From Nitrospirota bacterium (lineage in GTDB: Bacteria; Nitrospirota; UBA9217): a stretch of DNA of 39,830 nucleotides. The position numbers and the translations under genes are program-made. The stretch spans positions 1-39,830 of the forward strand of contig JAGVOT010000068.1 in the NCBI GenBank assembly GCA_020052615.1. The letters run 5' to 3'. Under the pieces are notes generated by a model, which searched no databases, had not been told where the DNA came from, and saw only the letters and a list, made by a program, of their open reading frames with translations. Of the stretch, positions 10,827-33,512 are shown one piece after another. Numbering within the stretch: the first letter of the stretch is position 1; the number at the start of each line of letters is the position of its first letter.

Positions 10827-12164
10827 TCAATCCCGGTCATCCTTGAAGTAGTCGGGATACAGTTTTACCGCGCAGTCCGGGCAAAGCGCATGGCTGAACT
10901 CGGCGTCCGTATGGTCCCGCACATACGCCTCGATCTGGTTCCAGTACCCCGTGTCATCCCGGATCCGCTTGCAGGAGGCGCAGATCGGCAGCAGCCCCTT
11001 GAGGGTCTTGACGTTCTCCAAAGCTTCCTTCAGCTCCTCGATGAGCCGCTCGCGCTCTTCCTCGACCAGCTGCCGCAGGGTGATGTCCTGGAAGGCGATG
11101 ACGGCCGCGACGATGCGGTCGCCCTCCCGGATCGGCGCGGTGACATAGGAAACGGGCAGGAAGGAGCCGTCCCTGCACAGGAACATGTCCCGTTCGACGT
11201 CCTGCCGCGCACCGCTCCGCAGGACCTGGTTGCTCGGGCATTCCCCGGCAGGGTAGGGAGCGCCATCGGGATGATGATGTGTCAACGCGTGCAGCTCCCT
11301 GCCGACGATATCCTCGCTCTTCCATCCGAGCAGCCGCTCGGCCTCGGGATTCAGGAAGGTCACCATCCCGTCCCCGTTGATGACGATCACCCCCTCGCCC
11401 AGGCTTGCCGTAATGTCGCTCAGCTTCTTCTCGCTCGCCTGGAGCGCCGCAAGCACCTCCTTCCGCTTGCTCAGCATATCGCGGAACGATCCTGCCAGGA
11501 CGCCGATCTCGTCGGCGCTGCGGACATCGATCGCCACTTCGTAGTTCCCGCCGGCGACCTCCCGGGTCGCCCGGACCAGTTCCTGGACCGGCCTCGTGAT
11601 CGCCCGCGCAAGAACAATGGCGGCGGCGCATCCCAGGACCAGGACGATCATGATGATCAGCTCGAGTTGCCGGATCATGGTCGAGACCGCCTGCCGGATC
11701 GGCCGCTCAGACATTCCGAGATGCACGGTCCCGATCCTGCCCCACATGATCGGCGCGGCAAAGTCGAGGATCTCGCCCTTTTCCGTTGCCAGGAGCTCGG
11801 TGCGGAATACCTGCACGTTCAACGCCGCACCGGACGCCTTCAGGCCCGCGGGGAATTCTCTCCCGAAGGTATGCGCAACGACGTGGCCCCGGCTGTTCAC
11901 GACGTAGCAATATTCGACGTCCTTGTCCGTCGCCATGAGATCACTGAGCAGCAGGTCCATCTCGAAGAACCGCTCGGTCAGGATCGGCATTGCGCTCTGG
12001 CTGGCGACATGCTGCGCCATGAACTCCCCCCGCTTTTCGAGGGCGGCCTGAAGCTTGGGCTGCACGGCGATCATGATGAATGCGGCGAGCGCCGCTCCCA
12101 TCAGCACGATGACCCCTATCGTTGCGGAGAGGATCTTAGCGTAGAGACTGTTCAGGCGTTTCAT
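10827..12164 (-). CDS. membrane HAMP-PAS sensor with C-terminal CxxC/CxxC domain, no kinase
   Basis: A 445-residue inner-membrane protein: TM1 at about 10-33, a periplasmic single-Cache-like region (about 35-165), TM2 at about 167-188, HAMP (188-240) and PAS (about 245-365). After a short coiled coil comes a compact C-terminal module (389-445) opening LKGLLPICASCKRIRD. Cys lies at 395, 398, 428 and 431, with His425 between the pairs. I know this module as a recurrent ending of PAS-type signalling proteins in Deltaproteobacteria and Nitrospirota; its output is undescribed. No kinase, GGDEF, EAL or phosphatase domain is present. Only 3 nt separate it from the PhnD-like gene upstream, so the binding protein may pass its signal to this sensor. 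Confidence 0.88.
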   Translation of the reverse strand: MKRLNSLYAKILSATIGVIVLMGAALAAFIMIAVQPKLQAALEKRGEFMAQHVASQSAMPILTERFFEMDLLLSDLMATDKDVEYCYVVNSRGHVVAHTFGREFPAGLKASGAALNVQVFRTELLATEKGEILDFAAPIMWGRIGTVHLGMSERPIRQAVSTMIRQLELIIMIVLVLGCAAAIVLARAITRPVQELVRATREVAGGNYEVAIDVRSADEIGVLAGSFRDMLSKRKEVLAALQASEKKLSDITASLGEGVIVINGDGMVTFLNPEAERLLGWKSEDIVGRELHALTHHHPDGAPYPAGECPSNQVLRSGARQDVERDMFLCRDGSFLPVSYVTAPIREGDRIVAAVIAFQDITLRQLVEEERERLIEELKEALENVKTLKGLLPICASCKRIRDDTGYWNQIEAYVRDHTDAEFSHALCPDCAVKLYPDYFKDDRD

Positions 12165-12167
12165 GAT

Positions 12168-13103
12168 CTACAGGGTCCCCTTCTTTTTCTGCTGTTTCAC
12201 CCATGCCTTCATTTCCCGGATCGAATCGTAGGCCTTGTCGTCGATCTCAATGAACTTGTCGATCATCATGTTCTGGAGGTTCACCTTCCCCTCGGGATCG
12301 GCATGGGCGGACAGGAAGATCTGCTTCAATGCCTTTTTCAGCTGTTCGTCCAGGCCCGGCCTGACCACGACCGGCGGGATCGCGTAGGGCGCGGATTTTC
12401 TGACGATCTTCGTCTTCGACGTGAACTGGGGATTCCGCCTGTCCGCATAGTCCCAGATCAGGCTGTCCACGGACGCGCCGTCAATGATGCCTCGAGCGAC
12501 CGCCTTGATCGACTTGTCGTGGGCATGGGTGAAGACATGCTTGCTGAAGAACGACTCGGGGGTCTCACCCATTTTGGCAAGCATGAATTCGGGGACCAGC
12601 CTGCCGGTGTTCGAATCGGGATCGGCAAAGGCGAACGTCCCGCCCCTCAGCTCTTCGAACCTCGTGATCGGGCTGTCCCGCGCAACGATGATATAGGCAT
12701 GGTAGACCGTCTGACCGTACGCCTGCGGCGCTACAAGCAGTTCCAGGCCGAATTCCGCGTGACCGTCCACATAGGGTCCTGAACAGACGAACGCGGCATC
12801 GACATTGCCCGACCGCAGAAGCTGATTGATCTCCCGGTAGCTTTCCCGATCGATGAAGTCCACCTGCCTGTTCAGCTTTTTGCCGATATAATCGAGGAAT
12901 CCCCGGTAGTAGACAAAGCCCTCTCGCGGCGTGATCATGCCGCCGACGGCGATACGTATCGGTCGGTCACCCTGGTGATCAGCGGACGGTCCCACGGCCT
13001 CCCGCTTTTCGAGACTGACCTTCTTCGGTTCATTGCTGTCGCTGCAGGAAGCCGGTCCCAGGAGCAGGAAGCACAGGAAACCGATCTGCATGACCTTGCG
13101 CAC
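12168..13103 (-). CDS. PhnD-like periplasmic binding lipoprotein
   Basis: A PhnD/phosphate-phosphite-phosphonate-type solute-binding protein of 311 residues from a GTG at 13103, with AAAGGGA upstream. ATGs at 13163, 13157 and 13091 are alternatives. The signal peptide ends GPASC, a lipobox-like site with an unusual Pro at -3. The mature part has family features: VGGMITPREGFVYYRGFLDYIGKKL, DAAFVCSGPYVDG, FADPDSNTGRLVPEFML and the DGASVDSLIWD segment. No ABC permease or ATPase lies nearby; the next gene is a membrane sensor. A role in ligand sensing rather than uptake is therefore the more likely inference. The ligand is unknown. Confidence 0.85.
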   Translation of the reverse strand: MRKVMQIGFLCFLLLGPASCSDSNEPKKVSLEKREAVGPSADHQGDRPIRIAVGGMITPREGFVYYRGFLDYIGKKLNRQVDFIDRESYREINQLLRSGNVDAAFVCSGPYVDGHAEFGLELLVAPQAYGQTVYHAYIIVARDSPITRFEELRGGTFAFADPDSNTGRLVPEFMLAKMGETPESFFSKHVFTHAHDKSIKAVARGIIDGASVDSLIWDYADRRNPQFTSKTKIVRKSAPYAIPPVVVRPGLDEQLKKALKQIFLSAHADPEGKVNLQNMMIDKFIEIDDKAYDSIREMKAWVKQQKKKGTL

Positions 13104-13118
13104 CCGAGGGGTCCCTTT

Positions 13119-13141
13119 CCCCCCTGCTCCGAACAGGGGGG
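13119..13141 (-). promoter_or_regulatory. leader hairpin before the PhnD-like gene
   Basis: CCCCCCTG (13119-13126) and CAGGGGGG (13134-13141) form an 8-bp perfect stem with a 7-nt loop. It is placed between the predicted transcription start and the GTG start codon, just upstream of the AAAGGGA ribosome site. It could affect translation; this is inference. Confidence 0.4.
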
Positions 13142-13169
13142 TACACCGAATGATCATGAGCATAGAGAT

Positions 13170-13175
13170 ATTATA
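13170..13175 (-). promoter_or_regulatory. candidate -10 element for the PhnD-sensor operon
   Basis: The minus strand reads TATAAT here. The -35 region is poor (TTCCTT at 17 bp). Transcription would start near 13163, about 60 nt upstream of the GTG at 13103. The divergent glutaredoxin promoter lies at 13258-13286. Confidence 0.35.
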
Positions 13176-13257
13176 ACGTATATATGGCCCATAAGGAACC
13201 GTTGGAAGGGTCAAGCCCGACCAGTGGCGCCGTCGTGCACGCGGCCGGCAAAATGAT

Positions 13258-13286
13258 TTGCATGGCCCGTATCGCCATGTTATACT
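13258..13286 (+). promoter_or_regulatory. promoter of the glutaredoxin-FTR genes
   Basis: TTGCAT (13258-13263) and TATACT (13281-13286) are spaced exactly 17 bp apart. The predicted start is near 13293, leaving about 20 nt that includes the GGAGGG ribosome site before the ATG at 13313. Confidence 0.7.
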
Positions 13287-13312
13287 GTTTTCACGTCGTC
13301 GGAGGGACCCGG

Positions 13313-13573
13313 ATGGCAAAGAAAAAAACGAAGATCAGGCTCTACACCCTGAGCACCTGCTCCCATTGCCTGCGGACCAAGAAGTTCTTCAAGGAAATCG
13401 GCATTGACGCGGAAGTGACCGACGTCGATCTGCTTACGGGCGACGAGCGGGAAAAGATCATGAACGAGGTGCGCAAGCTGAACCCGGACTGCACCTTCCC
13501 CACCATCTGCATCGACGACAAGGTCGTGGTCGGATTCAATGAGGAGCGCATCCGCAAAGCGCTTGGAGAATAG
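13313..13573 (+). CDS. glutaredoxin-family thiol protein
   Basis: An 86-residue thioredoxin-fold protein with redox motif C16-S-H-C19 following the first strand (KIRLYTLSTC). The conserved cis-Pro region is seen in CTFPTICIDDK, and the last helix in GFNEERIRKAL. It probably reduces disulfides or carries electrons in the cytoplasm. The start at 13313 is fixed by GGAGGG six bases upstream and the promoter at 13258-13286; the longer upstream frame has neither. It ends 3 nt before the FTR-like gene, so the two are co-transcribed and probably exchange electrons. Confidence 0.9.
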   Translation: MAKKKTKIRLYTLSTCSHCLRTKKFFKEIGIDAEVTDVDLLTGDEREKIMNEVRKLNPDCTFPTICIDDKVVVGFNEERIRKALGE

Positions 13574-13576
13574 CCA

Positions 13577-13909
13577 ATGACCGCGGAGCAACTCCATCCC
13601 CTCCTGTCAGGATACGCCGAGTCTCAGGGCATCCGGCTGAACAAGGACCGGGAATTTGTCATGGATATCCTGCGGGGCCTGCTCACGAACGAGCAGCGGT
13701 ATGGTTACCGCTCCTGTCCCTGCCGCCTGGCGTGGGGAACAAAGGAGCGGGACGCCGACATCATCTGCCCCTGTGTATACCGCGATCCGGACATCAAGGA
13801 ATACGGAAGCTGTTACTGTGAGTTGTATGTATCCGTAGAATGGAATGAAGGAAAACGCGAGCATCGGCAGGTTCCGGAGAGACGACCGAAAGAGAAACGC
13901 AAAATGTAG
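13577..13909 (+). CDS. ferredoxin-thioredoxin reductase catalytic chain-like protein
   Basis: A 110-residue iron-sulfur protein of the FTR catalytic beta-chain family. It shows the three paired Cys motifs: C47-P-C49-R, C64-P-C66 and C79-Y-C81. Known FTR uses four of these for a [4Fe-4S] cluster and two for the redox disulfide. It would pass electrons from ferredoxin to a thioredoxin-like partner, most simply the glutaredoxin encoded directly upstream. The spacing between the second and third motifs is longer than in plant or cyanobacterial FTR, as in other non-photosynthetic members. No variable alpha chain is nearby. GGAG lies 8 nt before the ATG. The TAG stop falls inside a half copy of the dispersed repeat (13906-13934), so the charged tail after residue 90 may have been shaped by that insertion. 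Confidence 0.88.
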   Translation: MTAEQLHPLLSGYAESQGIRLNKDREFVMDILRGLLTNEQRYGYRSCPCRLAWGTKERDADIICPCVYRDPDIKEYGSCYCELYVSVEWNEGKREHRQVPERRPKEKRKM

Positions 13910-13934
13910 GGGCGGCCCTGGGTGGCCGCCCTGA
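13906..13934. repeat. half copy of the GTAGGGGC dispersed repeat
   Basis: GTAGGGGCGGCCC followed by TGGG and TGGCCGCCCTGAT matches the left half of the element at 7621-7678 apart from a few substitutions. It still folds as GGGCGGCC/GGCCGCCC. It provides the stop codon of the FTR-like gene. Confidence 0.7.
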
Positions 13935-13952
13935 TAAATCAAGGGACCGATC

Positions 13953-14351
13953 ATGAAAAAGAAAAAGACCCCGAAAAAAGCAGCCATGCCGGACTTCGAC
14001 TTCAAGGAATTCACGCCTGAAGAGGACAGGATCTACACCGAGGCAGTGACGAAGTACCGGGAAGCGATTGCGGCGGGAAAGACCCTCAGGGACGCATACG
14101 AAAGCACCTCGATCGCCGACAAAGCGCTCGAGAAAATGATCCAGGCGGACTTCCTGAAGATCATGATCGCCGAGCGGCACTTCAGCCGGAAACAGCCCCT
14201 GGAAACCGTCGCGAAAGACCTCGACGTATCGATAGAGCTCGTGAAACACACGTATGGTCGGATGCTCCAGGAGGTCGGCGTCTCCGCTGCCAACCAGTTC
14301 GGGAAGGAATTCGGTGACCTGAACCCTGATGCGCCAAAAATGAACGACTAG
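13953..14351 (+). CDS. hypothetical protein with possible HTH-like C-terminus
   Basis: A 132-residue cytoplasmic protein with a basic start (MKKKKTPKKAA) and AAGGGA six bases before the ATG. It is mostly helical and has no Cys. The C-terminal part (about 80-110: PLETVAKDLDVSIELVKHTYGRMLQEV) reads like a helix-turn-helix, in which a DNA-binding role is possible but not shown. I do not recognise the family. It is 43 nt downstream of the FTR-like gene and could be in the same transcript if the repeat between them does not stop it. Confidence 0.75.
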   Translation: MKKKKTPKKAAMPDFDFKEFTPEEDRIYTEAVTKYREAIAAGKTLRDAYESTSIADKALEKMIQADFLKIMIAERHFSRKQPLETVAKDLDVSIELVKHTYGRMLQEVGVSAANQFGKEFGDLNPDAPKMND

Positions 14352-14390
14352 TATCGGCGACAGGACGATGAGGCGACTTAACGATGCAAA

Positions 14391-14484
14391 ATGACTTGTC
14401 CCCGCGTCACCCCGTCAACCTGTCCCCCTGTCGATCTTATTCTCCGCGTCCCCCCTTCCCCGTGTCTCCGTGTCCGGGACCTCT
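14391..14484 (+). repeat. pyrimidine-rich degenerate GTCYCC repeats
   Basis: The stretch before the TauE/SafE gene is built of variants of a short unit: GTCCCC, GTCACC, GTCAACC, GTCCCC, then later GTCCCC, GTGTCTCC and GTGTCC. It is strongly C/T-rich on the plus strand. It looks like a decayed tandem repeat; the units are not exact, so boundaries are approximate. Confidence 0.4.
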
Positions 14485-15234
14485 ATGAAATTCCTCATTG
14501 GTTTGCTTGCAGGCATCACCGGCGGTATTACCGGCGGAGGCGGCGGGATCGTCATGATCCCCCTCCTGGTCGGCATCCTGCAATTGGACCAGCATACCGC
14601 GCACGGCATGAGCCTCGTGGCCCTCGTCTTCACCGGGCTTGCCGGCGCCATCACCTATGCCGTGAACGGTTCCGTCGATGTGACCGCATCGTTGCTCATG
14701 GCATCGATCGCAGTCGCCGCAGCGCATTCAGGCGCACGCTTCGCCCATGCCCTCCCGGGGTGGAAGCTCAAGCGGTCCTTCGGCGGCTATCTGATCGTCG
14801 TAGCGGTCCTCCTGCTGCTCAAACCCTACCTGACAGCCCTTCCTTCGCCGGGAGGGGGCATGATGAAGATCACGGTGCTCCTGCTTACCGGCGGCCTTGC
14901 GGGATTCACGTCGGGGATGATGGGGGTCGGCGGAGGGGCCATCATGATCCCCGCCATGGTTCTGCTCGCCGGATTTGACCAGCATGTGGCTCAGGGCACT
15001 TCCCTGCTCGTCATGGTGCCCACCGGAAGCGCTGGAGCGTATACCCACTGGAGACTGGGAAACGTCAGGACAACCCAGCTCCGGGGCCTTGTTCCAGGCG
15101 TCCTCGTCGGCTCCTTTCTCGGCAGCACCGCTGCTCACTCCCTTTCGGACAGCTCCTTGCGGATGATCTTCGCCGCAGTGCTGATCTGGACGGGTATGCG
15201 GTTTCTCAGAACAAAAAGGCCTGCCTTTTCCTGA
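14485..15234 (+). CDS. TauE/SafE family membrane exporter
   Basis: A 249-residue inner-membrane protein with about eight hydrophobic segments arranged as two related halves. The first half has GGITGGGGGIVMIPLL with QHTAHGMSL; the second has GMMGVGGGAIMIPAM with QHVAQGTSL. That internal duplication is the signature of the TauE/SafE (DUF81) family. Members export sulfite, sulfonates or sulfur organoanions. The ATG at 14485 is chosen over a GTG at 14470; neither has a strong ribosome site. A terminator overlaps its stop codon. The sulfite-oxidase-like gene that follows makes sulfite a reasonable substrate, but this is inference. Confidence 0.88.
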   Translation: MKFLIGLLAGITGGITGGGGGIVMIPLLVGILQLDQHTAHGMSLVALVFTGLAGAITYAVNGSVDVTASLLMASIAVAAAHSGARFAHALPGWKLKRSFGGYLIVVAVLLLLKPYLTALPSPGGGMMKITVLLLTGGLAGFTSGMMGVGGGAIMIPAMVLLAGFDQHVAQGTSLLVMVPTGSAGAYTHWRLGNVRTTQLRGLVPGVLVGSFLGSTAAHSLSDSSLRMIFAAVLIWTGMRFLRTKRPAFS

Positions 15235-15247
15235 GCCGGCCTTTTGT
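15211..15247 (+). terminator. terminator after the TauE/SafE gene
   Basis: ACAAAAAGGCC (15211-15221) pairs with GGCCTTTTGT (15238-15247) with one bulge, giving a stem that overlaps the stop codon and ends in a T-rich run. The A-tract on the 5' arm means it could work in both directions. Confidence 0.5.
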
Positions 15248-15415
15248 CATGTTGTCTTATGTAATCCTTGATTCTGCATCTTCCCCGGCTTTTTCCCTGT
15301 TTATCTGGTCATCTGTACCCTAGTCAGCTTCCTTCCATGAATTCCTCGGTTCTTCTCTCCAGACTTACCTGCCTTCGCGGTCCTGGCTTTAGGTTCATCC
15401 TGATCACACCGACAA

Positions 15416-15437
15416 GGCTGAGTCTCAAGGCTCAGCC
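15416..15437. promoter_or_regulatory. dyad upstream of the sulfite-oxidase-like promoter
   Basis: GGCTGAG and CTCAGCC form perfect 7-bp arms around TCTCAAGG, ending 8 nt before the -35 box at 15446. The position suits an activator site. No T-tract follows, so it is not a terminator. Confidence 0.4.
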
Positions 15438-15445
15438 GCCCGGCC

Positions 15446-15473
15446 TTGACAATCACCTCCCGTGAACTATAAT
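15446..15473 (+). promoter_or_regulatory. consensus sigma-70 promoter of the sulfite-oxidase-like genes
   Basis: TTGACA (15446-15451) and TATAAT (15468-15473) are both perfect hexamers, separated by 16 bp. Transcription would start near 15480, leaving a leader of about 75 nt before the ATG at 15556. Confidence 0.8.
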
Positions 15474-15555
15474 TTACTCTATAACGACTCCGAGGACTGA
15501 ATGCACCTTTTTGGTGATAAAAGCATCATAGCCACTTTGAAGGAGGAATCGAGCC

Positions 15556-16863
15556 ATGAACAGCTCCGATGCATCGAACGCTAAACCGGATCAGGGGGAA
15601 AAAGGCATTGTAACAAGAAGGGTGTTCCTGAAATCGGCCGGCCGCCTGGGAGCGCTCCTGGCCGTGGGCTCCGCTACGATAGCATTGGATGCTGCGGCGC
15701 AATCCTCGCAGGCACCGGCAACCTCACCCGCCGCAAGCCCGGCGCCCCCGCCGCCGATTCCCGGTCCGATTGTCCCCAATGCAGCGGTGATCGCCGAGAA
15801 GGACCCGGTCATGAAGGTCCTGACCGAGCGGCCGCTCACGGCCAACGCCACCGCAGAGAACCTGAACGATGCCGTTACCCCGGCCAACCGCTTGTTCATC
15901 CGCAACAATCTTCTCACACCGGACCTGCAGGCAGCGGGTCATACGCTGACCATAAAAGGCCTTGTGGACAAGCAGATGACCTTCACCTTCGATGACCTGC
16001 AGAAGACCTTCCCTGCCGTGACCGCGCAGGGCATGCTGGAGTGCGCAGGTTCAGGCCGCACGGCGTTCTCGCCTCTGCCGAAAGGGACCCCCTGGAACCC
16101 CTCGGGCGGATATGGATGCCCGAAGTGGACCGGCGCCCGTTTGCGCGACATCCTGAAGGCAGCCGGCGTAAAGCCCGGCGCGGTGCATGTCGCCTTCTTC
16201 GGCGCCGATTTCGGCGAGTTGCCGACAGCCAAGCCGGTCGTGCGCAGCATCCCGATGAGCAAGGCGCTGGAACCGAACACGCTGGTTGCCTGGGCCATCA
16301 ACGGCGAGCCCCTGCCGAAGGTCCACGGCTTCCCGCTCCGGATGATCGTTCCGGGCTGGGTGGGCTCCGCATCCATCAAGTGGCTTGTGGGGATCGAGGT
16401 GCTCGACGCGCCCTTCAAGGGCACGTACATGGATGACAGCTACCGGGTGCCGGCGCATCCCATTGCCCCCGGCGAAAAGATGCCCAAGGATGCCGTCTCG
16501 ACCGAAGCCTGGCCGGTAAAGTCGGTGATCACGCAGCCGGCTCCGGGCGCGAAGTTCAAGATCGGCGGCAAGATCGCCATTGCCGGCAAGGCCTGGGCGG
16601 GCGAGAATTCGGTCACCAGGGTCGAGGTCTCGCTCGACGAGGGCGTGACCTGGAAGCAGGCAACGCTTGCCAAGCCCGGCAACAAGTACGCCTGGAGGGT
16701 CTTCTCCTTCAGCGCTCAGCCGAAACGTCAGGGATATGTTACGATCCTCGCGCGGGCAACGGACAGCAAAGGCAATGTTCAGCCGATCGTCGCCGCCTGG
16801 AATCCGCTGGGCTACTTCTGGAACGGCATCCATCGCGTGGGGGTCACCGTTGAGAACGCATAG
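15556..16863 (+). CDS. Tat-exported sulfite-oxidase-family molybdoenzyme (SorA-like)
   Basis: A 435-residue periplasmic oxidoreductase. The N-terminus carries a twin-arginine motif, T-R21-R22-VFLK, and a hydrophobic stretch ending near Ala48. After a Pro/Ala linker comes the molybdopterin-binding domain (about 90-290), with the Mo-ligand Cys at 163 in LECAGSGR, then GGYGCPKWTGARLRDIL and PLPKVHGFPLRMIVPGW. The C-terminal part (about 315-430) is the Mo-co dimerisation domain (RVEVSLDEGVTWKQA). No haem domain is fused. The motif usually reads CAGNR; here one residue is inserted and Asn is absent. AGGAGG precedes the ATG. A c-type cytochrome gene overlaps its end, as in the SorAB sulfite dehydrogenase pair. 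Other oxidised substrates remain possible. Confidence 0.88.
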   Translation: MNSSDASNAKPDQGEKGIVTRRVFLKSAGRLGALLAVGSATIALDAAAQSSQAPATSPAASPAPPPPIPGPIVPNAAVIAEKDPVMKVLTERPLTANATAENLNDAVTPANRLFIRNNLLTPDLQAAGHTLTIKGLVDKQMTFTFDDLQKTFPAVTAQGMLECAGSGRTAFSPLPKGTPWNPSGGYGCPKWTGARLRDILKAAGVKPGAVHVAFFGADFGELPTAKPVVRSIPMSKALEPNTLVAWAINGEPLPKVHGFPLRMIVPGWVGSASIKWLVGIEVLDAPFKGTYMDDSYRVPAHPIAPGEKMPKDAVSTEAWPVKSVITQPAPGAKFKIGGKIAIAGKAWAGENSVTRVEVSLDEGVTWKQATLAKPGNKYAWRVFSFSAQPKRQGYVTILARATDSKGNVQPIVAAWNPLGYFWNGIHRVGVTVENA

Positions 16864-17149
16864 GTTCCTTCGCCTGCCGGTTCTGCTGGCCCTCATGGGT
16901 ACGGGGGGCCTGCTGGTCCTTGCTTCGGCTATCGGGCAGAGTGCGGCCGTGCTCATCGATGGTCCCGGCGTGGAGCTCGTACGGCAAAAGTGCTCGCTCT
17001 GTCATGATCTCGAGCACATCACGGCGATCCGGCAGACGCGGGAGGAATGGGCGGACACGGTCAAGGTCATGATCAGCCGCGGGGCGCCGATCACTCCCGA
17101 AGACGAGGCTATTATCGTCGAGTACTGCACGAAGTATTACGGGAAATAG
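16850..17149 (+). CDS. exported monohaem c-type cytochrome (SorB-like)
   Basis: A 99-residue protein beginning at a TTG (16850) with a GGGGG ribosome site; it overlaps the molybdoenzyme gene by 14 nt in another frame, so translation is coupled. A signal peptide (MRTHRFLRLPVLLALM..) is followed by the haem-binding motif C48-S-L-C51-H52 and the helical segment TREEWADTVKVMISRGA. This resembles small cytochrome subunits or PQQ-enzyme-associated haem domains. It is probably the electron acceptor of the molybdoenzyme. The start codon is not certain: no ATG lies upstream in a useful position, and the first in-frame Met is inside the signal peptide. Confidence 0.8.
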   Translation: MRTHRFLRLPVLLALMGTGGLLVLASAIGQSAAVLIDGPGVELVRQKCSLCHDLEHITAIRQTREEWADTVKVMISRGAPITPEDEAIIVEYCTKYYGK

Positions 17150-17184: not shown

Positions 17185-17219
17185 CAGAAAGGCCTGCTCG
17201 TTCCGAGCAGGCCTTTCTG
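17185..17219. terminator. strong bidirectional terminator
   Basis: A 16-bp perfect stem, CAGAAAGGCCTGCTCG (17185-17200) and its complement (17204-17219), with loop TTC. The 5' arm has AAA and the 3' arm TTT, so it serves both convergent genes that meet here. Confidence 0.85.
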
Positions 17220-18050: not shown

Positions 18051-19601
18051 CTACTCCCACTCGATCGTGCTCGGCGGCTTGGATGAGATGTCGAAGACCA
18101 CGCGGTTCACGCCCTTCACTTCATTGATGATGCGGTTGGACATGACGCCCAGGAGCTCATAGGGGATCCTTGCCCAGTCCGCCGTCATGCCGTCCTGGCT
18201 CGTGACGGCGCGGATGGCCACGACGTTCTCATAGGTCCGCTCGTCGCCCATGACGCCCACCGTCTTGATCGGGAGCAGGACGGCAAAGGACTGCCAGATG
18301 TCCCGGTACAGTCCCGCCTTCTTGATCTCCTCGATCACGATGGCGTCGGCCTCGCGCAATATCCTGAGACGCGGCCCCGTCACCTCGCCCAGGATGCGGA
18401 TGGCGAGCCCCGGGCCGGGGAAGGGCTGGCGGTCGATGATGTCGCCGTGCATCTTCATCTCCCGGCCGATTGCCCGCACCTCGTCCTTGAACAGTTCGCG
18501 CAGCGGTTCGACCAGTTTCAGTTTCATCTTTTCGGGAAGACCGCCGACATTATGATGGGACTTGATGATCGCCGAGGGGCCCTTGAACGAAACGCTCTCG
18601 ATCACGTCCGGATAAAGCGTTCCCTGAACGAGGAACTCGGCGCCGCCCACATGGTGAGCCTCCTGCTCGAATACCTCGATGAAGGTATTGCCGATGATCT
18701 TCCGTTTCTTTTCCGGGTCCTCGACGCCCTTGAGCCGGTCCAGGAACTTCGCCGAGGCGTCGACATACTTGAGGTTCAGACCCATGTCCTTGAAGGTCTC
18801 CTGGACCTTCTCGGCCTCGTCCTTCCGGAGCACGCCGTTGTTCACGAAGATGCACGTGAGCTGCTTGCCGATGGCCTTGTGCACCAGCACCGCGGCAACC
18901 GAGGAGTCGACGCCGCCCGACAGGCCGCAGACCGCCTGCCTGCTGCCGACGGCCTTCCTGATCTCGCCGACCGAGAACTCGACAAACGAGGCCATGTTCC
19001 AGGTCGGCTTGCATCCGCAGATGCCGTACACGAAGTTCCGGAGGATCTGCACGCCCTGCGGCGTATGCGCCACCTCGGGATGGAACTGGACGCCGAAGAA
19101 CTTCCGCTTCTCGTCCGCCATGGCTGCGGTCGGGGAGTTGTCCGTATGGGCGATCGCTGAGAACCCGTCAGGCATCTTCTCAATCCGGTCGCCATGGCTC
19201 ATCCAGACGACGGCCTTGCCGCCCTCGCCGACGCCGGCGAACAAACCCTCGTTCTCATGGATGCTGAGCTCGGCCCTGCCGTATTCCCGCTTTGTCGACT
19301 TGGCGACCATTCCGCCCTCGATATGCGTAAGGAGCTGCATGCCGTAGCAGATGCCGAGCACCGGTATGCCGAGTTCAATATGCGCCTTGTCGATAAGCGG
19401 CGCGCCGCTGTCATAGACGCTCGACGGTCCGCCCGAAAGGATCAAACCCTTGGGCCGGAAAGCCTTGACCTTGTCGAGCCCCGCGTTGAAAGGGAAGATC
19501 TCGCAATAGACCTTGGCCTCGCGCACGCGGCGGGCGATGAGTTGGGTGTACTGGGACCCGAAATCGAGGATGAGGATCCGTTCACTATGGATGTCTGACA
19601 C
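18051..19601 (-). CDS. guaA: GMP synthase (glutamine-hydrolysing)
   Basis: GuaA converts XMP to GMP using glutamine and ATP. The 516 residues begin at a GTG (19601) with AAAAAGGAG five bases upstream; the longer upstream frame lacks such a site. The class I amidotransferase domain (about 1-195) has the nucleophile Cys85 in GICYGMQ and the His/Glu pair in QFHPEVAH. The ATP-pyrophosphatase P-loop is SGGVDSS. The dimerisation domain ends with the conserved C-terminus KPPSTIEWE. The gene is complete and standard. The lipoprotein gene downstream may be in the same transcript. Confidence 0.98.
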
Positions 19602-19750
19602 GGGAAGCTCCTTTTTAGAGTTTAACAGCACTGCCAGAGAATAAACCACGGGCGGTTTCGCCGCACACGGTGAGAAACAAGGCCAGATAACGCGATTATG
19701 GATCGGTCTTTAACCGCGTGTCACGACGAGAACAACCCCCCAGTCTTTTG

Positions 19751-20863: not shown

Positions 20864-23704
20864 TCAGATCGGCGCCACAGGGGGGCTGACGCCGTCTTCA
20901 CCGATGCATGCGCCCGAACCATCATGGATCGGCTCCCCAGGGTCATTCGCCCGCAGATCCAAACTGGGCGGGTAATCGGCGCAGAGATTACCGGACCAGT
21001 CGACCATGGACTGGATCTCCAGTTCAGGATCCAGGCTTTGGCCGGCGGGATCGGTGATCAGCGTCGGGGCGAATGGGTTGTCGATCAGATGCCCCGGCTC
21101 GATGGTGTTGCCCACCACCGTCGCATAGGCAGAATAGCCTATGGCCGTGAGGATCACGCTCCCGGTCACGGTGTTCGAATGGAAGTCCAGCACCGTAGAG
21201 CTCATCAACACGAGCGCGCCCTCTGACTCGCCCGGCATGGTGATGCTGTTGCCCGTCGCCGTGGCCCGCCGCAGCCCGCTCGACGAGGTGCCGGTGAGAT
21301 AGATCCCCATCATGTCGGCGGTAATGGCATTGTTGGTTGCCGTCACCTGCTGCACATCATTGCCGGCGACGATGCCGAAGGACGCCGTTATCGTGTTGTT
21401 GTCAATGGTCACCGGCGTCGAGACCTTCTCAAGCGCGATGCCGTAGTTGGCCTCTTCGATCGTATTGCCCTGGATCAGCACCGTCCCCTTCGCGTTCTGG
21501 ACCACGATCGCATTGGCCTGACCCACGCGGTAGATGTTGTTCTTCACCTCGATGGGGTCGGTACGATCGTCAGCGTCGATATGCACGCCGTTCTCGAGCG
21601 GACCGGTCACGCCGGCGGGCATAATGGTAAAACCCTCTATGTTCAGGCCGGCGGGCACGGCCGGCGCTGTCATCGGAGCGCGAGCAGCGCTTGTCGGCCG
21701 GGATTTGAAGGAACCGCCTATGCCGAGCACAGCGACAGTCCCGCGCACGTCCGAACTGGATCCGCCGGCAAAGCTCAGGTCAAAGGGAACACTCAGCGGC
21801 AATTTCGTGCCGTCGATATGCACACCTGCCTGGTAGGATACATCGCTGTTCGCGACCACCCCGTCCACCAGGCCGGCTTCCACACCGTAGGTGGCGCTCC
21901 CCTGAACCGCGACACCGCCGGAAAGATTCCAGCGCGCCTTTCCGCCGACCTCCGCTTTCAGCTTGCCCACGCTTGCCGCGCTCACGTCGCCGTAGACCTC
22001 TCCCTGGAATGCATCATCGAGGAGCGAAAAGCCGTATCCCTCCCGGACACTGAGCCCCTTGTGGCTCAATGTAAGTATACCGCCGCCGTCCAGACCGACA
22101 TCGACGGACGTGCTCGAATTCACATTCAGGCTATCCAGTCTCGGTCCGCTGATGCCGGCAGGGATGTTAAGGTTGGCGGCTATTTTCCCCGTATCAACGG
22201 AACCGAGGAACACCCGGGCGTTGCCCTCCACGTTCGCCGTGACCGTTACGTCCTGGACCCCGAGCCGGTTCAATTCCAGCCGGGCCTCGCCCGTCAGGTT
22301 TGCGTTGCCCGATGCAGTAGCCACAAAGGTCGGCAGGATGGCATCGCTGACCGTGGTTTTCCCGCAATACGAAGTGCCTGCCGCAACCGCAACGCTGAGC
22401 GGCCCTGCAGCGGCGTTCTCACGGTACTGGACATTCCCCTGGTGGGAGCATCCCGCTGCGGGCGCGGCCATGATCGCGGCTGATGCTTTGCCGCTCAAGA
22501 CCAGAGGCGCCGCGTCGAGCAGCACACTGACCGTGCTGGCGAACTGGTTCCCTCGCAGCAGCAGGTCATCGCCGGCGATGAAGCTCACGGCTCCGGAGAA
22601 AGCGAATCCCGTGAAGGTCATCGGGCTCGCAGAGGAGATCGTGGTAGCGCCGGCCACGGTCACCGGCGTCCCCGCTTCCGGCTCAAGGGTCACATCGCAT
22701 CCCGGCGTGAAGCTGCCGATCGTTACCGAACTGCGCTTGATCACTACACGCCCTGGTCCGGACAGGCAAACGTACGTGACGGCCTCCGGCACTGTGAGGA
22801 ACTCGTTCGGCAATACCGGCGTGTTGACGACATAGGCAATATTCGTCCGCTTGTTGCGGCCGTCCATCACCACGTACGTGCCCGTGCCCTCGATGCTCAC
22901 CGAGACCGTTTTCGCCGTCGTGTCCGTCCAACTGCCGGAAATAGACTGCAATGCAACGCCGGTCCACTGCCCAATGACGAGATCGCCTTCCACGCCGCCG
23001 AGAGCGGTGATATCGGCAGGATCGTAGGTGATGCTCAGTTCGACATGACCGGTGAATATCGTAGCTGCAGGACTGCTGATAAGATAGGCGCTGCCTACGA
23101 ACAGCGGATCAGCATCAGCGGTCGCAGCAGCGGTGAGCGCCGTATCCGAGGCAAGCGCGCCGGCGAGTGCGTGCAATTGTATCATTCCACCTGCAAGCCG
23201 GAGGATGCCGCCGTCAGCACCGACAACAGTGCGGTCGTCGTCCTCGATGGAAACAAAGGCTGTGGCAGTTCCGAGGGGAGCATTTTGAGCGTTACTTAAT
23301 GCGACCTTAAAGGCCTCCATCGCGGTAGGCTCGGCAATGAGATCGCCGGTCACCGTAACCGTAATGACCTTGTCGGTCTCACCGGGGGAGTAGGTCAGAC
23401 TTCCCGAAGAAACGAGGTAGTCCAGACCGCCGATGGCACTGCTGTCCACCGTTTCCCAATCCACGGTGACCGCGGCCGCATAGGTCTTCGTCAGCCGGAC
23501 ATGAAGCTGGACTTCCTGCGTCGCACTGTCTCCCTCGACCACATACGCTCCGTCGATGACGATACCGGTCGGCAGAAAGCCTGAGTTGGCCGGCGGCGTT
23601 CCCGGGCCCGGGGTACCATTACCTCCCGTTCCTCCACCTCCTCCGCTGCTGCAACTGACCATAAACGCTGCGACCAGGATCAGAACTTGTGTTAGCTTAC
23701 TCAT
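20864..23704 (-). CDS. large Calx-beta surface lipoprotein with beta-helix region
   Basis: A 946-residue protein. The ATG at 23704 has GGGGGG eight bases upstream. The signal peptide (MSKLTQVLILVAAFMVSC) is followed by a Gly/Pro-rich linker. Residues about 45-165 form a Calx-beta domain (VEGDSATQEVQLHVRLTKT, DYLVSSGSLTYSPGETDKVITV, EAFKVALSNAQNA, SIEDDDR). A middle beta-rich part of about 500 residues follows. The C-terminal third has repeated right-handed beta-helix rungs of the NosD/pectate-lyase type (IQGNTIEEANYGI, IDNNTITASFGI, ATNNAITADMMGI). Calx-beta domains often bind Ca2+. No catalytic motif is evident, so adhesion or polysaccharide binding is likely but unproven. It stands alone, with unmarked gaps on both sides. 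Confidence 0.85.
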   Translation of the reverse strand: MSKLTQVLILVAAFMVSCSSGGGGGTGGNGTPGPGTPPANSGFLPTGIVIDGAYVVEGDSATQEVQLHVRLTKTYAAAVTVDWETVDSSAIGGLDYLVSSGSLTYSPGETDKVITVTVTGDLIAEPTAMEAFKVALSNAQNAPLGTATAFVSIEDDDRTVVGADGGILRLAGGMIQLHALAGALASDTALTAAATADADPLFVGSAYLISSPAATIFTGHVELSITYDPADITALGGVEGDLVIGQWTGVALQSISGSWTDTTAKTVSVSIEGTGTYVVMDGRNKRTNIAYVVNTPVLPNEFLTVPEAVTYVCLSGPGRVVIKRSSVTIGSFTPGCDVTLEPEAGTPVTVAGATTISSASPMTFTGFAFSGAVSFIAGDDLLLRGNQFASTVSVLLDAAPLVLSGKASAAIMAAPAAGCSHQGNVQYRENAAAGPLSVAVAAGTSYCGKTTVSDAILPTFVATASGNANLTGEARLELNRLGVQDVTVTANVEGNARVFLGSVDTGKIAANLNIPAGISGPRLDSLNVNSSTSVDVGLDGGGILTLSHKGLSVREGYGFSLLDDAFQGEVYGDVSAASVGKLKAEVGGKARWNLSGGVAVQGSATYGVEAGLVDGVVANSDVSYQAGVHIDGTKLPLSVPFDLSFAGGSSSDVRGTVAVLGIGGSFKSRPTSAARAPMTAPAVPAGLNIEGFTIMPAGVTGPLENGVHIDADDRTDPIEVKNNIYRVGQANAIVVQNAKGTVLIQGNTIEEANYGIALEKVSTPVTIDNNTITASFGIVAGNDVQQVTATNNAITADMMGIYLTGTSSSGLRRATATGNSITMPGESEGALVLMSSTVLDFHSNTVTGSVILTAIGYSAYATVVGNTIEPGHLIDNPFAPTLITDPAGQSLDPELEIQSMVDWSGNLCADYPPSLDLRANDPGEPIHDGSGACIGEDGVSPPVAPI

Positions 23705-24091
23705 TTTCATGGCCCCCCGCGACATCATCATGTCTCTGGCTATAGAACATATATAATCAGGACTTCAATTGCCCTTTTTTCCTGAGTACACTTAGCACGG
23801 GACGGCTCTTTTGTAAAGGTAATAATTATCGGAGCACTGCGAGTACGTACCGCACATTCCAGCTCAGGGCAGGCAAATACCTTCGGAGAAGCGGCAGGAG
23901 GCGTTCATGCATGGTATTTCAAATCGAAGCATTCGAGATATTTCGCTGAGGAAGAAACATCATATTTCCAGGGGGGGGGTATGCAGACTACATGCTGACC
24001 GTATGATCACCGGCATGGATGCGGGGAGAAGAATGTTCCCCTGCCCCCGATCCAAACCAGTATCAAGCAAAATACTGCTGCAGTACAATTC
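23705..24091. other. intergenic region with no supported gene
   Basis: Between two minus-strand genes. It holds an AT-rich patch near 23740-23760 that could contain the promoter of the Calx-beta gene, and a run of nine G at about 23971-23979. A 62-codon plus-strand frame near 23907 has no ribosome site. No convincing terminator for the YkgJ-type gene. Confidence 0.4.
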
Positions 24092-28650: not shown

Positions 28651-29820
28651 TTATTTCTTGATGTCCCGGCCGCTATGCCTGGCAAACACCATGGCCGTCG
28701 TGCGGTAGAAAAGGTGGGCGAACTTGGAGTACGGCGCGTACGCGAAGAGCGACCACACGAACACCAGATGGAAATAGTACACATAATAGCCGACGGTCAT
28801 ATCCAGGAGACGCAGACCCCAGGACAGCATCCCGGTCGCGCCGACGCCGATCACGATCGCAAGGAAGATCCAGTCGAAGTAGGAGCCCATGCCGGCCTTC
28901 CCCGCCTTGGCGAGCCGGTTCAGCAGGATGATCGTTATCCCTAAGGCAAATGCGACCGAGCTTGCCAGGGCGAGCATCTTCATGGGATCGGTGATCGGAT
29001 AGGGAGCCTCGCCGAAGTTGAACACGCCGAAGGCCTGGATGTGAAGCAGTTCATGGCCGTAGAGGTACACGATCGCCCAGGTGGTCACCACGGCAAGCCC
29101 CGCGAAACTGTAGAACAGCAGGAGATGACCCCACTGCCGAAGACGGTTCACGTTGCAGTCGGCGAACTTCGTGTGGGCCATGATCTGGGTCACGGACGAG
29201 ATGACATCGGCGACGATATTCCCGCCGGACCGCATCTCGCCGGCCTGCGCCTTCATGCCGCTCCAGAGGCGCTTGATCCCGACGAACGCTGATGCCGCCG
29301 CGAACAGGGCGGTCAGGATGAAGATGATGTCGATGGCCGGCACCGGCATGAAATTGTGGTATGCCATGACCGCGCTTTTTGCCCGAACCGCTGCGATGTC
29401 CGCATTCCCGAGGACCGTCGCGACGATGGCGAACAGCGCCATGGGGATGGCGAAGAGGAGCCAGATGAGCTTGGGGTCCTGGGCGATCTTTGCGAACAGC
29501 GGCACCAGGGCCACATGCTTGATGCTCTGCTTGCGGATGGCGTTCAGCACCTCGCCGGGCTTGGCTCCGCGCGGGCAGTAGGCCGTGCAGTCGCTGCACT
29601 GATGGCAGAGCCACACATCGGCGCTCGCGATAAGCTTGTCCTTCTGGCCCCACTGGGCGAGGACCATCTCTTTCCGCGGGAAGGGATTTCCCTCGGGGGT
29701 CACATTGCACACCACCGAGCAGGTGGCGCACTGGTAGCATTTCTTGAGGGACTCGCCGCCGCCCTTGATGATCTCGTTCACGAACGCCAGATCCGGTTTG
29801 ATTATGGTTGCTTCTGACAT
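28651..29820 (-). CDS. qmoC: quinone-interacting membrane-bound oxidoreductase subunit C
   Basis: A 389-residue fusion of an HdrC-like iron-sulfur part and a HdrE-like cytochrome b part. Cluster 1 ligands are C28, C31, C34 and C38; cluster 2 is CHQCSDCTAYCPRG near 72-85. From residue about 115 there are six hydrophobic segments, with His residues inside some (haem b). It takes electrons from menaquinol and delivers them to QmoAB, which serve AprAB. CGGAGG precedes the ATG. It is separated from qmoB by 135 nt that carry a palindromic repeat (29891-29939), unlike the tight spacing of qmoA and qmoB. Confidence 0.95.
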   Translation of the reverse strand: MSEATIIKPDLAFVNEIIKGGGESLKKCYQCATCSVVCNVTPEGNPFPRKEMVLAQWGQKDKLIASADVWLCHQCSDCTAYCPRGAKPGEVLNAIRKQSIKHVALVPLFAKIAQDPKLIWLLFAIPMALFAIVATVLGNADIAAVRAKSAVMAYHNFMPVPAIDIIFILTALFAAASAFVGIKRLWSGMKAQAGEMRSGGNIVADVISSVTQIMAHTKFADCNVNRLRQWGHLLLFYSFAGLAVVTTWAIVYLYGHELLHIQAFGVFNFGEAPYPITDPMKMLALASSVAFALGITIILLNRLAKAGKAGMGSYFDWIFLAIVIGVGATGMLSWGLRLLDMTVGYYVYYFHLVFVWSLFAYAPYSKFAHLFYRTTAMVFARHSGRDIKK

Positions 29821-29890
29821 ATGCTAAATCCTCCGCTTGCTTTGGTAGGAGTGCCTTTGCTTTTCATTCCGCACTCCGCGATCAATACGG

Positions 29891-29939
29891 CCCCTCATCT
29901 TTTATCCTCTCCCCTCAGGGGAGAGGGCAGGGTGAGGGG
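29891..29939. repeat. palindromic dispersed repeat inside the qmo operon
   Basis: Outer arms CCCCTCA (29891-29897) and TGAGGGG (29933-29939) enclose a hairpin, CCTCTCCCC (29906-29914) / GGGGAGAGG (29918-29926). It is of the same family as 19751-19784. It sits between qmoC and qmoB and would form a stable RNA structure. Confidence 0.65.
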
Positions 29940-29955
29940 TGGCTCCGCAATCGGT

Positions 29956-32190
29956 TTACATGCTCTTGAACGGGTTCGGTCCGAACTCCTTCACCTTCTC
30001 AACGAATTCGTTGATCATCTCCGGCAGTTTTTCATACTCGTTGATGGCGACCTGCATCAGCTCGACACGGCCCGATTCGAGCTGCAGCCGGTTCAGGGTC
30101 TCGCTGACCTTGCTGAAGCGCGTATTCGCCAGCTCGCTGCCCTTTACGAAATGGCACTGGTAGTTCTCGCCGTACTTGCAGCCCAGGAGCAGCATGCCGT
30201 CGATGCCCTTGGACAGCGCGTCAGCGACCCAGACGAGGTTCATGCCGCCCAGGCAGCGCATGGATACGAACCGCACGCTCGGGTCGATCTTCTTGCCGAC
30301 GATGGCCGCCGTGTCGAGGGCCGGATAGGCGTCGTTCTCGCAGGCAAGAACGGCGATCCGGAAGATATCCTCGTCATCGGGGACATCGATGGACTTGAGC
30401 ATGGAACCGACGATGTCGACGCTGTAGTCCTTGAACGAAACGATGCGCTCGGGGCAGGCGCCCATGCAGGTGCCGCAGCGCCGGCAGCGGTTGATATTGT
30501 AGTTGGGGATGCCCTTCTCGTCCTCGTCGATCGCGCCGAAGGGACATTCTTCCGTGCACCGTTTGCAGGCCGTGCACTTGATCAAAAGCGGATCGGGATA
30601 GGTCACGTCCCAGGCGCGGGGATGGACCGCCACGCCGCGCTGCGCGTGGTCGATGGCCTGGATCGCCTTGAAGGCAGCTCCGGCGCCGTCCTCCATGGCC
30701 TCGGCCATGTTCATGGGTTGGTGCACGCCTCCCGCCGCGTAGATGCCGGTTCTGCGCGTCTCGTACTGGAAACAGATGAAGTTCGAATCGGCGAAGCCTG
30801 ACGCCCCTTCCAGGGTCGGGATCTCAGGCCCCTGGCGGTAGCCGAGGTTCAGGATGTAATCGGGCTTGGGGGTCTGTTCGAGATAGTTCTTCTTCGCCTC
30901 GTCGCCGCCGCCCGCCGCCTTGGTGAGTCCGTCGGCGTACTCCTGCGGTGCACGGGAGGTCGGCACCATGCCGGTGGCAAGGACCACCAGATCGGCCTCC
31001 ACCTTCACCTTTTCGCCGGTCTTGGTCCCGAACAGGGTGTTCTCCATCTCGACGAACATGTTGCCGTTCCCGGCATCGGAGACGCCGGTCACATCGGCCT
31101 TGGTAAGCATCACGCCCGGGTTGTTCTGCGCCTCTTTATAGTAGAGCTCGGTCCTGCCCGGCGTCCGGATGTCCTTGTAGAAGATCATGGCAAGGGCGTC
31201 TTCGTTCTGACGCACATACTGGGCCTGCTTGAGCGACGTGGCGCAGCACATGGAGGAGCAGTACGGAAGATGGTTCGGATCGCGCTGCCCGGCGCACTGG
31301 ACGAAGGCGACCTTCAGGGCCGGCTTGCCGTCGGAAGGACGGAGCAGCTTGCCGCCATTCTTTTTTGCGATCTCCTCGAGCTCGAAATTCGTGACCACGT
31401 TCTTCATCTTGCCGTAGCCGAGATAATCGAGCTTGTTCGCATCGTAGGGCTTCCAGCCCGACGCCATGACAATGGCCCCGATCATCATGGTTTCGCCGTT
31501 CGACAGCGTCACGCTGTACAGGCCGGGCTGTCCGTCGGTCTTGGACACGGTCGTGGACTTGTAGACCTTGATGTTCGGATTGCTCTCGACCTCGGCGACG
31601 GTCTTGCTGATGTCGGTGTCGACGATCAGCGGCTTGTTGATATAGGACCCCGTCGGGATCTTCTTGTAGAGCTTGTTCACGAAGCCGCCGAGCTGGGCGT
31701 CCTTCTCGACCAGCACCACGTTCTGGCCCGCCCCCGCGGCGGAGAGCGCCGCGGTCATGCCGGCGATGCCGCCGCCGATGACCAGGATCGTGCTGTTCAG
31801 GTCCGGAAGGATGTTCGGCGCCGGAAGCTCGGACTTCTGGACCTTGACGATGCCCATGGCGAGATAGTCGTAGGCCGCATCGTTCGTTCCATCGGTGTTC
31901 GGCTCCATGGTCCAGGCGACGAACTCGCGGATATTGACCCGCTCGACAAGAACGCCCGGGAACGTGAACTCGGCCGCTTTGGCGCGGGGCGAGCAGGCCG
32001 CGATGACGATCGTGTTCACACCGTCATTGGCAAGGTCGTTCTTGATGAGCTGAACGCCTTCGGGGCTGCAGAGCGCGTCATGGAACTTGTAGTTCTGAAG
32101 TTTCTTAGCGGCACCGGCGACCTTCTCGACGTCCATCGCCTCCTTGATGCCGCATCCCTTGCAGATATATACGCCGTATTTCTTCTCCAT
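29956..32190 (-). CDS. qmoB: quinone-interacting membrane-bound oxidoreductase subunit B
   Basis: A 744-residue cytoplasmic flavo-iron-sulfur protein related to HdrA. The N-terminus has ICKGCGI, then an FAD motif GGGIAGMTAALSAAGAG. Two [4Fe-4S] sets follow: CTACKRCTEECPFG and CRRCGTCMGACPE. The final 130 residues match the MvhD-type [2Fe-2S] domain (LACENDAYPALD, RCLGGMNLVWVADAL, GIDGMLLLGCKYG). This order is the known QmoB layout. AGGAGG lies upstream of the ATG and the gene begins 2 nt after the qmoA stop, so the two are translationally linked. Confidence 0.96.
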   Translation of the reverse strand: MEKKYGVYICKGCGIKEAMDVEKVAGAAKKLQNYKFHDALCSPEGVQLIKNDLANDGVNTIVIAACSPRAKAAEFTFPGVLVERVNIREFVAWTMEPNTDGTNDAAYDYLAMGIVKVQKSELPAPNILPDLNSTILVIGGGIAGMTAALSAAGAGQNVVLVEKDAQLGGFVNKLYKKIPTGSYINKPLIVDTDISKTVAEVESNPNIKVYKSTTVSKTDGQPGLYSVTLSNGETMMIGAIVMASGWKPYDANKLDYLGYGKMKNVVTNFELEEIAKKNGGKLLRPSDGKPALKVAFVQCAGQRDPNHLPYCSSMCCATSLKQAQYVRQNEDALAMIFYKDIRTPGRTELYYKEAQNNPGVMLTKADVTGVSDAGNGNMFVEMENTLFGTKTGEKVKVEADLVVLATGMVPTSRAPQEYADGLTKAAGGGDEAKKNYLEQTPKPDYILNLGYRQGPEIPTLEGASGFADSNFICFQYETRRTGIYAAGGVHQPMNMAEAMEDGAGAAFKAIQAIDHAQRGVAVHPRAWDVTYPDPLLIKCTACKRCTEECPFGAIDEDEKGIPNYNINRCRRCGTCMGACPERIVSFKDYSVDIVGSMLKSIDVPDDEDIFRIAVLACENDAYPALDTAAIVGKKIDPSVRFVSMRCLGGMNLVWVADALSKGIDGMLLLGCKYGENYQCHFVKGSELANTRFSKVSETLNRLQLESGRVELMQVAINEYEKLPEMINEFVEKVKEFGPNPFKSM

Positions 32191-32192
32191 CC

Positions 32193-33443: not shown

Positions 33444-33484
33444 GGTACGTATTCCTCCTTCAAAGCTCTACGACCGATAAAAAA

Positions 33485-33512
33485 ATTGTAAATTGAAAAT
33501 TGGAAATTGCAG
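33485..33512 (-). promoter_or_regulatory. possible internal promoter before qmoA
   Basis: On the minus strand CTGCAA (33507-33512) and TACAAT (33485-33490) are 16 bp apart. The -35 fit is weak. It lies just downstream of the terminator at 33524-33552, where a new start would be useful. Confidence 0.3.

Follow-up and report, generated by a model that had tools for sequence, protein, structure and literature searches.

Contig JAGVOT010000068.1 of a Nitrospirota bacterium (assembly GCA_020052615.1, genome size 3.99 Mb), which is taken here as a whole, with its 39,830 nucleotides, as the window (C5 in our numbering), carries a run of six genes for a glutaredoxin, an FTR-like protein, a small helical protein, a TauE/SafE-type transporter, a molybdoenzyme of the sulfite oxidase family and a cytochrome c. 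Do these genes constitute one sulfite-handling block, as the initial annotation suggested, with sulfite made by reduction of adenosine 5'-phosphosulfate (APS), exported by the transporter and oxidised by a periplasmic molybdoenzyme? We consider it reasonably probable that the run comprises three neighbouring units, namely, a redox module, a TauE-type transporter and a separately acquired enzyme-cytochrome pair, sorAB, that probably oxidises sulfite. The find is mostly ordinary, although the enzyme is part of a wide branch of the sulfite oxidase family in which we found no tested member. The six genes themselves lie where they had been annotated, all on one strand, with assignments from Pfam and NCBIfam:

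13313-13573, + strand: glutaredoxin-like protein, 86 amino acids (aa), CSHC active site; Pfam PF00462, 42 bits; solved relatives 3nzn, 5cax, 3ic4 and the N-terminal half of 7pwe
13577-13909, + strand: FTR catalytic-subunit-like protein, 110 aa, with CPC, CPC and CYC cysteines; Pfam PF02943, 77 bits (cut-off 22); 134 bits against 7pwe and 125 bits against 4tpu
13953-14351, + strand: all-helical protein of 132 aa, here termed UNK; linkage to glutaredoxin (Grx) and FTR genes in several Nitrospirota families; single-sequence model with a mean confidence (pLDDT) of 77
14470-15234, + strand: TauE/SafE (TSUP)-type membrane transporter; Pfam PF01925, 159 bits
15556-16863, + strand: SorA-like molybdoenzyme of the sulfite oxidase family, 435 aa, twin-arginine signal; assigned by Pfam (174 and 71 bits), NCBIfam, tree and pocket residues
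16850-17149, + strand: mono-haem cytochrome c resembling SorB, with a CSLCH haem site and a TTG start; 39 bits against NCBIfam SorB (cut-off 93)

Division of the run between tauE and sorAB

The run is split at the same place, between tauE and the enzyme gene, by a promoter match together with a hairpin at the tauE end and by synteny. The TATAAT hexamer of the promoter-like site ends 82 bases upstream of the enzyme start codon, and sorAB is probably transcribed from this promoter of its own. The loose promoter scan found two sites, compared with a mean of 1.1 per shuffled region. The signals, followed by two further features of the window, are:

13257-13286, + strand: promoter-like site (9/12, extended -10) upstream of the glutaredoxin gene; weak, near chance
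15211-15247, + strand: terminator-like hairpin at the tauE end; folding energy of the stretch -15.5 kcal/mol, z -2.0 (moderate); absent from the list of the promoter scan
15446-15473, + strand: sigma-70-type promoter-like site TTGACA-N16-TATAAT upstream of sorAB; 12/12 match
15540-15546, + strand: ribosome-binding-type AAGGAGG upstream of the enzyme gene; read directly
17185-17219, + strand: perfect terminator-type hairpin of 16 pairs between sorB and a converging lipoprotein-like gene; -30.7 kcal/mol, z -8.3
18051-19649, - strand: guaA, which in several relatives is the gene adjoining tauE or sorAB on the right; NCBIfam 823 bits, synteny
28651-37422, - strand: sat-aprBA-qmoABC sulfate segment; Pfam, with NCBIfam cut-offs passed by sat, aprA, aprB and qmoC, and qmoA and qmoB named by position

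The family of the bacterium is represented by 14 genomes, some of them incomplete (completeness at least 74%); 12 were covered by the synteny comparison, including its own genome (G000), and neighbourhoods of the family enzymes were mostly viewed with a flank of 1.5 kb. The order Slp / PhnD / Grx-FTR-UNK-TauE / GuaA / HD / HppA / Qmo recurs in parts across the family. In G004, tauE is separated from guaA by about 0.1 kb, without an intervening sorAB; in G001 the gap measures 2.4 kb, again without sorAB, which resides on another contig; and in G002 sorAB adjoins guaA while tauE lies 6.9 kb off on the same contig. Direct adjacency of tauE and sorAB is confined to the own genome, i.e., one of the eight family genomes that encode a full-length member of the sulfite oxidase family (G000-G003, G005, G007, G008 and G010).

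The transporter belongs to the TauE/SafE family by its PF01925 match, and its orthologues (61-100% identity) occur in seven of the 14 family genomes, own included, adjoining UNK in six. Their presence is not associated with that of the enzyme (2 x 2 table 5/3/2/4, Fisher p 0.59, over genomes of which some are incomplete): G004 and G011 have the transporter without a full-length enzyme, and G003, G005 and G007 the enzyme without this transporter. Since seven stretches matching this transporter type, on six contigs, are found in the own genome, the substrate cannot be read from the family name. The transporter is best described as one that often follows the redox module without a link to the enzyme, export of sulfite or of a sulfonate being a putative function, and the proposed role of an exporter joining a sulfite source to a sulfite sink finds no support in these counts.

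A single sulfite-handling block would draw on genes that are all present and on one strand, with sat, apr and qmo in the window and dsrA in the genome; set against the synteny, the separate promoter match of sorAB, the lack of co-occurrence of transporter and enzyme and a direction of the sulfur pathway that gene content does not settle, we regard it as very doubtful. The sulfate segment, annotated as adjoining, does belong to the window, on the opposite strand and approximately 11.5 kb from the run, with guaA, an HD-domain protein gene, hppA and others intervening.

Class, origin and probable substrate of the molybdoenzyme

The enzyme is a member of the sulfite oxidase (SUOX) fold family, with matches to Oxidored_molyb and Mo-co_dimer and the molybdenum ligand Cys163, and its N-terminus carries a twin-arginine motif, RRVFLK. 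The last 14 bases of the enzyme gene are shared with the cytochrome gene; overlapping matches were also observed in G002 (locus L002). With 1SOX numbering in parentheses, the pocket residues are Arg116 (138), Asn118 (His140), Cys163 (185), Arg168 (190), Trp180 (204), Tyr296 (322) and Leu418 (Arg450). A candidate loss of the catalytic tyrosine (Trp246, in LVAWAING) was ruled out, as the alignments with 1SOX and 2BLF put this tyrosine in MDDSYRVP, where it is kept; the corresponding stretch of chain 2c9x is KTAFRIP.

Among 106 aligned locus proteins (aligned with three PDB chains, and with L002 and L061 being one gene counted twice), the histidine position is occupied by Asn in 84 and by His in 21, the remaining one being the fragment L067. 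The Arg, Cys, Arg, Trp and Tyr are kept in 84/84 aligned clade members, a count that reflects constancy within the clade and not frequency, since an alignment of the clade itself served to gather the members. The scan for relatives confirmed at least 578, of which 80 were kept. The tree consists of 67 rows, i.e., 64 of the 106 locus proteins, hand-picked for spread, and three PDB chains, with L067, near-duplicates, L021, SorT (4PW3) and 6Y0K left aside. In it, the enzyme falls within a clade of 51 rows (support 96/95), which are exactly the tree rows with Asn (R-x-N class), apart from SorA, SoxC and the enzymes of the phylum family f9. Within it, the three genus sequences group, with support of 100/99, with five from metagenome-assembled genomes (MAGs) titled Burkholderiales, Chromatiales, Betaproteobacteria and Bordetella (two). 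The nearest named relative of the enzyme is L061, from a MAG titled Nitrospirae bacterium (88% identical, and regarded as one and the same gene with L002); L062-L066 are 54-62% identical. Two of the MAG records, L062 and L064, are labelled Bordetella parapertussis and come from numbered isolates, and this organism name looks doubtful.

Placement within the SorA clade is rejected by the approximately unbiased (AU) test (70 log units, p-AU 3e-6), as is grouping with the two other clade members from the own family (221 log units, p-AU 2e-4); the groups were named after inspection of the tree, 1SOX, 2XTS and 2BLF are long branches calling for caution, and the root was not inferred. Because the enzyme groups with Proteobacterial enzymes and adjoins tauE only in the own genome, sorAB was probably acquired horizontally. 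It would be a Tat-exported (twin-arginine translocation) molybdoenzyme with a mono-haem cytochrome c, of the same stock as the Proteobacterial enzymes. As separate observations, SorA-type enzymes (L017-L021, in G005, G017, G010, G008 and G089) are present in other genomes of the family and phylum; together with the two R-x-N types, this brings the unlike sulfite-oxidase-family enzymes of the family, which are distributed in patches, to at least three.

With the SorAB sulfite dehydrogenase of Starkeya novella (2BLF), the enzyme shares the combination of a molybdenum enzyme with an adjacent CXXCH cytochrome c and the positions Arg55, Cys104, Arg109 and Tyr236. It differs in having Asn118 in place of His57, in the vertebrate-type Trp180, in its 37-38% identity to the SorA-type enzymes of relatives and in its position outside the SorA clade that contains 2BLF. 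Of the active-site trio Arg55, His57 and Tyr236, the arginine and tyrosine are present. The best solved matches by score are chains of vertebrate sulfite oxidase (180 bits, vs. 176 for SorA). The positions Arg138, Cys185, Arg190, Trp204 and Tyr322 of the vertebrate enzyme 1SOX are kept; His140 is replaced by Asn, Arg450 by Leu, and cytochrome c is a separate subunit. Curated cut-offs do not class the enzyme as SorA, SorT or SoxC, and the tree likewise speaks against SorA. In the literature, most subscription papers lying outside the search, we found no description of the R-x-N clade or of this synteny and no tested clade member.

Since the sulfite pocket retains its Arg, Arg, Trp and Tyr, along with the molybdenum-ligand Cys, sulfite is the likeliest substrate. 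Most likely, sorAB would oxidise periplasmic sulfite to sulfate and pass electrons via SorB to haem-copper oxidases, a predicted substrate, location and acceptor that are consistent with the pocket residues, the cytochrome gene and the oxidase-family genes in the genome. The sulfite oxidation on which the initial annotation had made its model conditional is supported in that the enzyme is plausibly a periplasmic sulfite dehydrogenase with a cytochrome partner, and some of its relatives stand near genes for sulfide or persulfide oxidation; the SorA and SorB cut-offs and the SorA clade are missed. The comparison with SorA that the annotation had called for leaves the enzyme in an R-x-N clade of its own, apart from SoxC as well and with the pocket retained.

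Another sulfur substrate is possible, as one relative is encoded within a sox cluster. In a Burkholderiales MAG, L067 (62% identical over residues 171-427), the order is sorA-sorB-soxY-soxZ-SoxX/SoxA-type cytochrome-soxB-sulfur transporter (L067:9-7279); SoxY (135/125 bits), SoxB (810/550) and SoxX (67/61) exceed their cut-offs, and SoxZ (75.7/76) and SoxA (97/110) fall just under. The place before soxYZ is often that of soxCD. A sulfane dehydrogenase like SoxCD, or an enzyme for some other sulfur compound, is also compatible with the change of His to Asn and with the mildness of the AU rejection of a grouping with SoxC (19 log units, p-AU 0.018), which, with the solved chain 2XTS, is of the same family. 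Nevertheless, the SoxC rows branch apart with support of 100/100, and the clade keeps an arginine that is lost (Gly) in 2XTS and in three of five Nitrospirota SoxC-like rows. SoxY has no match in the own genome or in two congeners, while the same search finds it in 2 of the 14 family genomes. Moreover, as the L067 contig begins inside the enzyme gene, a soxCD pair could lie elsewhere in that genome. Taken together, we find this alternative rather unlikely.

The wider gene context of clade relatives is mixed. Among 80 named loci, a match resembling sulfide quinone reductase (SQR) was observed in 7, a PDO-like match in 7 and sox genes in 1, giving 9 loci with any of these, 6 of them from Flavobacteriaceae; TauE matches occur in 2 of the 80, one being the congener. 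Against the model for type III sulfide quinone reductase (cut-off 525 bits), the SQR query itself scores 228 bits. The PDO query is a protein with metallo-beta-lactamase and rhodanese domains, labelled by this domain order, and passes no NCBIfam cut-off. Carriers of the R-x-N class include the culturable Muriicola and Algoriphagus. A plasmid collection yielded 321 matching records, and 26 of the 40 listed are annotated as "sulfite oxidase". Six plasmid regions were opened, and neighbours in three of the five annotated regions with clade members include no sulfur genes. This, together with the lack of a sulfur gene in the unit of the window pair, would suit an enzyme of general stress response or metabolism that is unconnected with inorganic sulfur in the bacterium. 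We hold such a role to be decidedly unlikely, given that all but one of the pocket residues of sulfite-oxidising enzymes are kept, that a PDO-like protein adjoins relatives in flavobacteria and, with 50% identity, in Pontibacter, and that a sulfate permease is near the gene in Leisingera, where the metallo-hydrolase is unlike the PDO-like protein. The Deinococcus region, with YVRSH, holds a gene unlike clade members, in an aromatic-degradation cluster.

Several points weigh against three units with a sulfite-oxidising sorAB. All NCBIfam equivalog cut-offs are missed: SorA with 244/600 bits, SoxC (TIGR04555) with 214/420, SorT (NF052247) with 199/570 and SorB with 39/93. All eight clade relatives scanned are likewise below the cut-offs, the SorT cut-off is exceeded in none of five genomes holding relatives, and even the SorA-type enzyme L018, scanned in part, remains under the SorA value at 497 bits. 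The conserved active-site histidine is replaced by Asn, and the promoter and hairpins dividing the run are sequence matches only. In 71 of the 80 named loci none of the sought sulfur-oxidation genes is present, and 9/80 lacks a background rate for comparison; moreover, L070, one of the nine, is a weak match of 29%. The pair preceding soxYZ in L067 fits a SoxCD-like function equally. Finally, COX1-family genes exceed the cut-off in all 14 family genomes, but this family includes nitric oxide reductases, and oxygen use is not proven for that reason.

The glutaredoxin-FTR-UNK module and other neighbours

Grx-FTR-UNK is a conserved, old thiol-redox module of the family and, in another order, of other Nitrospirota, separate from the proposed sulfite block in which it had been included. 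UNK is present in 99 of 295 genomes of the phylum sample, 13 of them from the own family, and of 30 loci retrieved with it, 20 have Grx and FTR adjoining: 12/13 in the own family, 7/7 in family f16 and 1/10 in others. In the thirteenth own-family locus (G011), Grx and FTR are about 4.4 kb from UNK. Grx-FTR-UNK is the arrangement within the own family, and UNK-Grx-FTR that found outside it. Eleven FTR-less loci were read, and in eight of them (L044, L045, L046, L047, L049, L055, L183 and L186) UNK adjoins a protein of 119-123 aa, these being alike by eye (..KGYVFYIDTMDKKPILFLMRHTAADY..).

FTR family membership is evident from PF02943 with three cysteine pairs, which align with those of 7bzk. 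In the Grx-FTR protein 7PWE, residues 4-83 match the window glutaredoxin and residues 89-192 the FTR protein; in contrast to 7PWE and to the rubredoxin-FTR protein 4TPU, the window has two separate genes and a third partner, UNK. The genes, their cysteines and the conserved linkage are consistent with a cytoplasmic thiol-disulfide unit, in which electrons would probably pass from ferredoxin to the FTR Fe-S centre and on to glutaredoxin.

At E 0.01, neither Pfam nor NCBIfam gives a match for UNK. Its single-sequence model contains six helices with core pLDDT near 90, and a fold search with this model returned no significant match (best E 1.2). Many helix-turn-helix domains were among the matches; a role of this type would be a guess.

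To the left of the module, on the - strand (10827-13319), are genes for a phosphonate-type binding protein and then for a Cache-HAMP-PAS protein that lacks a Pfam kinase domain and has a CxxC..CxxC tail; these genes adjoin the redox module in G001 and G004 as well. A 955-aa protein with Calx-beta and beta-helix domains is encoded at 20864-23731 on the - strand. An Rfam scan of the window gave no match, and PADLOC and PHROGs searches with the small proteins gave nothing informative, the glutaredoxin matching a thioredoxin-domain phrog and TauE a phrog without assigned function.

Sulfur metabolism of the cell and significance

The initial annotation took the cytoplasmic path to be sulfite-producing, a direction that gene content does not provide. 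dsrA exceeds its cut-off in 11 of the 14 family genomes, own included. The own dsr locus (L191:3666-10751, contig C33) contains dsrA, dsrB, a DsrD-like gene, cobB/dsrN, dsrC, a ferredoxin gene, dsrH, dsrE, dsrF, a gene for an RsbRD-type protein, dsrM, dsrK and dsrJ; dsrB, C, M, K and J pass NCBIfam cut-offs, and dsrE, F and H pass those of Pfam only. The DsrD-like gene (L191 8128-8403) scores 18.6 bits, and its counterpart in G004 18.5 bits, against a Pfam cut-off of 24.2. An absence of DsrD, suggested by a family search that detected none in 14 + 9 genomes and in which no control gave a signal, was overturned when reading of the locus revealed this gene. Markers of the reductive and oxidative directions are found in one cluster, and because the locus holds both a DsrD-like gene and dsrEFH, the APS pathway may either make or consume sulfite.

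Published accounts bear on this direction. Nitrospirota with both DsrD and DsrEFH are described as a mixed group, with DsrL in all mixed genomes (PMC11406059), and dsrEFH of type II subtype 1 is assigned mostly to Nitrospirota, sulfur oxidation by sulfate reducers with dsrEFH being argued (PMC13293266). Another account reports that Dsr gene sets differ between members of the phylum and that DsrD occurs without DsrL in most of its Nitrospirota MAGs; its sulfate-reducing reading of Ca. Sulfobium favours the reductive direction (PMC10591310). For Nitrospirota of Bohai sediments, Apr-Sat of the oxidative type and few SorA or SUOX genes are reported (PMC12345210).

A broader and more tentative proposal, to which we give limited credence, is that R-x-N enzymes are a large class of horizontally mobile molybdenum-cytochrome enzymes, acting as periplasmic sulfite or sulfane oxidases and once found in the place of soxCD. 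Here such an enzyme would be an oxidative-mode sulfite sink beside a reversible Apr-Qmo-Sat pathway, in a genus with mixed dsrD/dsrEFH content and haem-copper oxidases.

The conserved Grx-FTR-UNK trio offers a starting point for work on UNK, a Nitrospirota protein as yet without a name. Should sulfite be oxidised by the R-x-N class, the "sulfite oxidase" annotation of its plasmid-borne members would gain a testable biochemical basis, and surveys relying on curated SorA, SorT and SoxC cut-offs would be missing the class. A genus equipped with sulfate-reducer genes would then also possess a periplasmic sink for sulfite.

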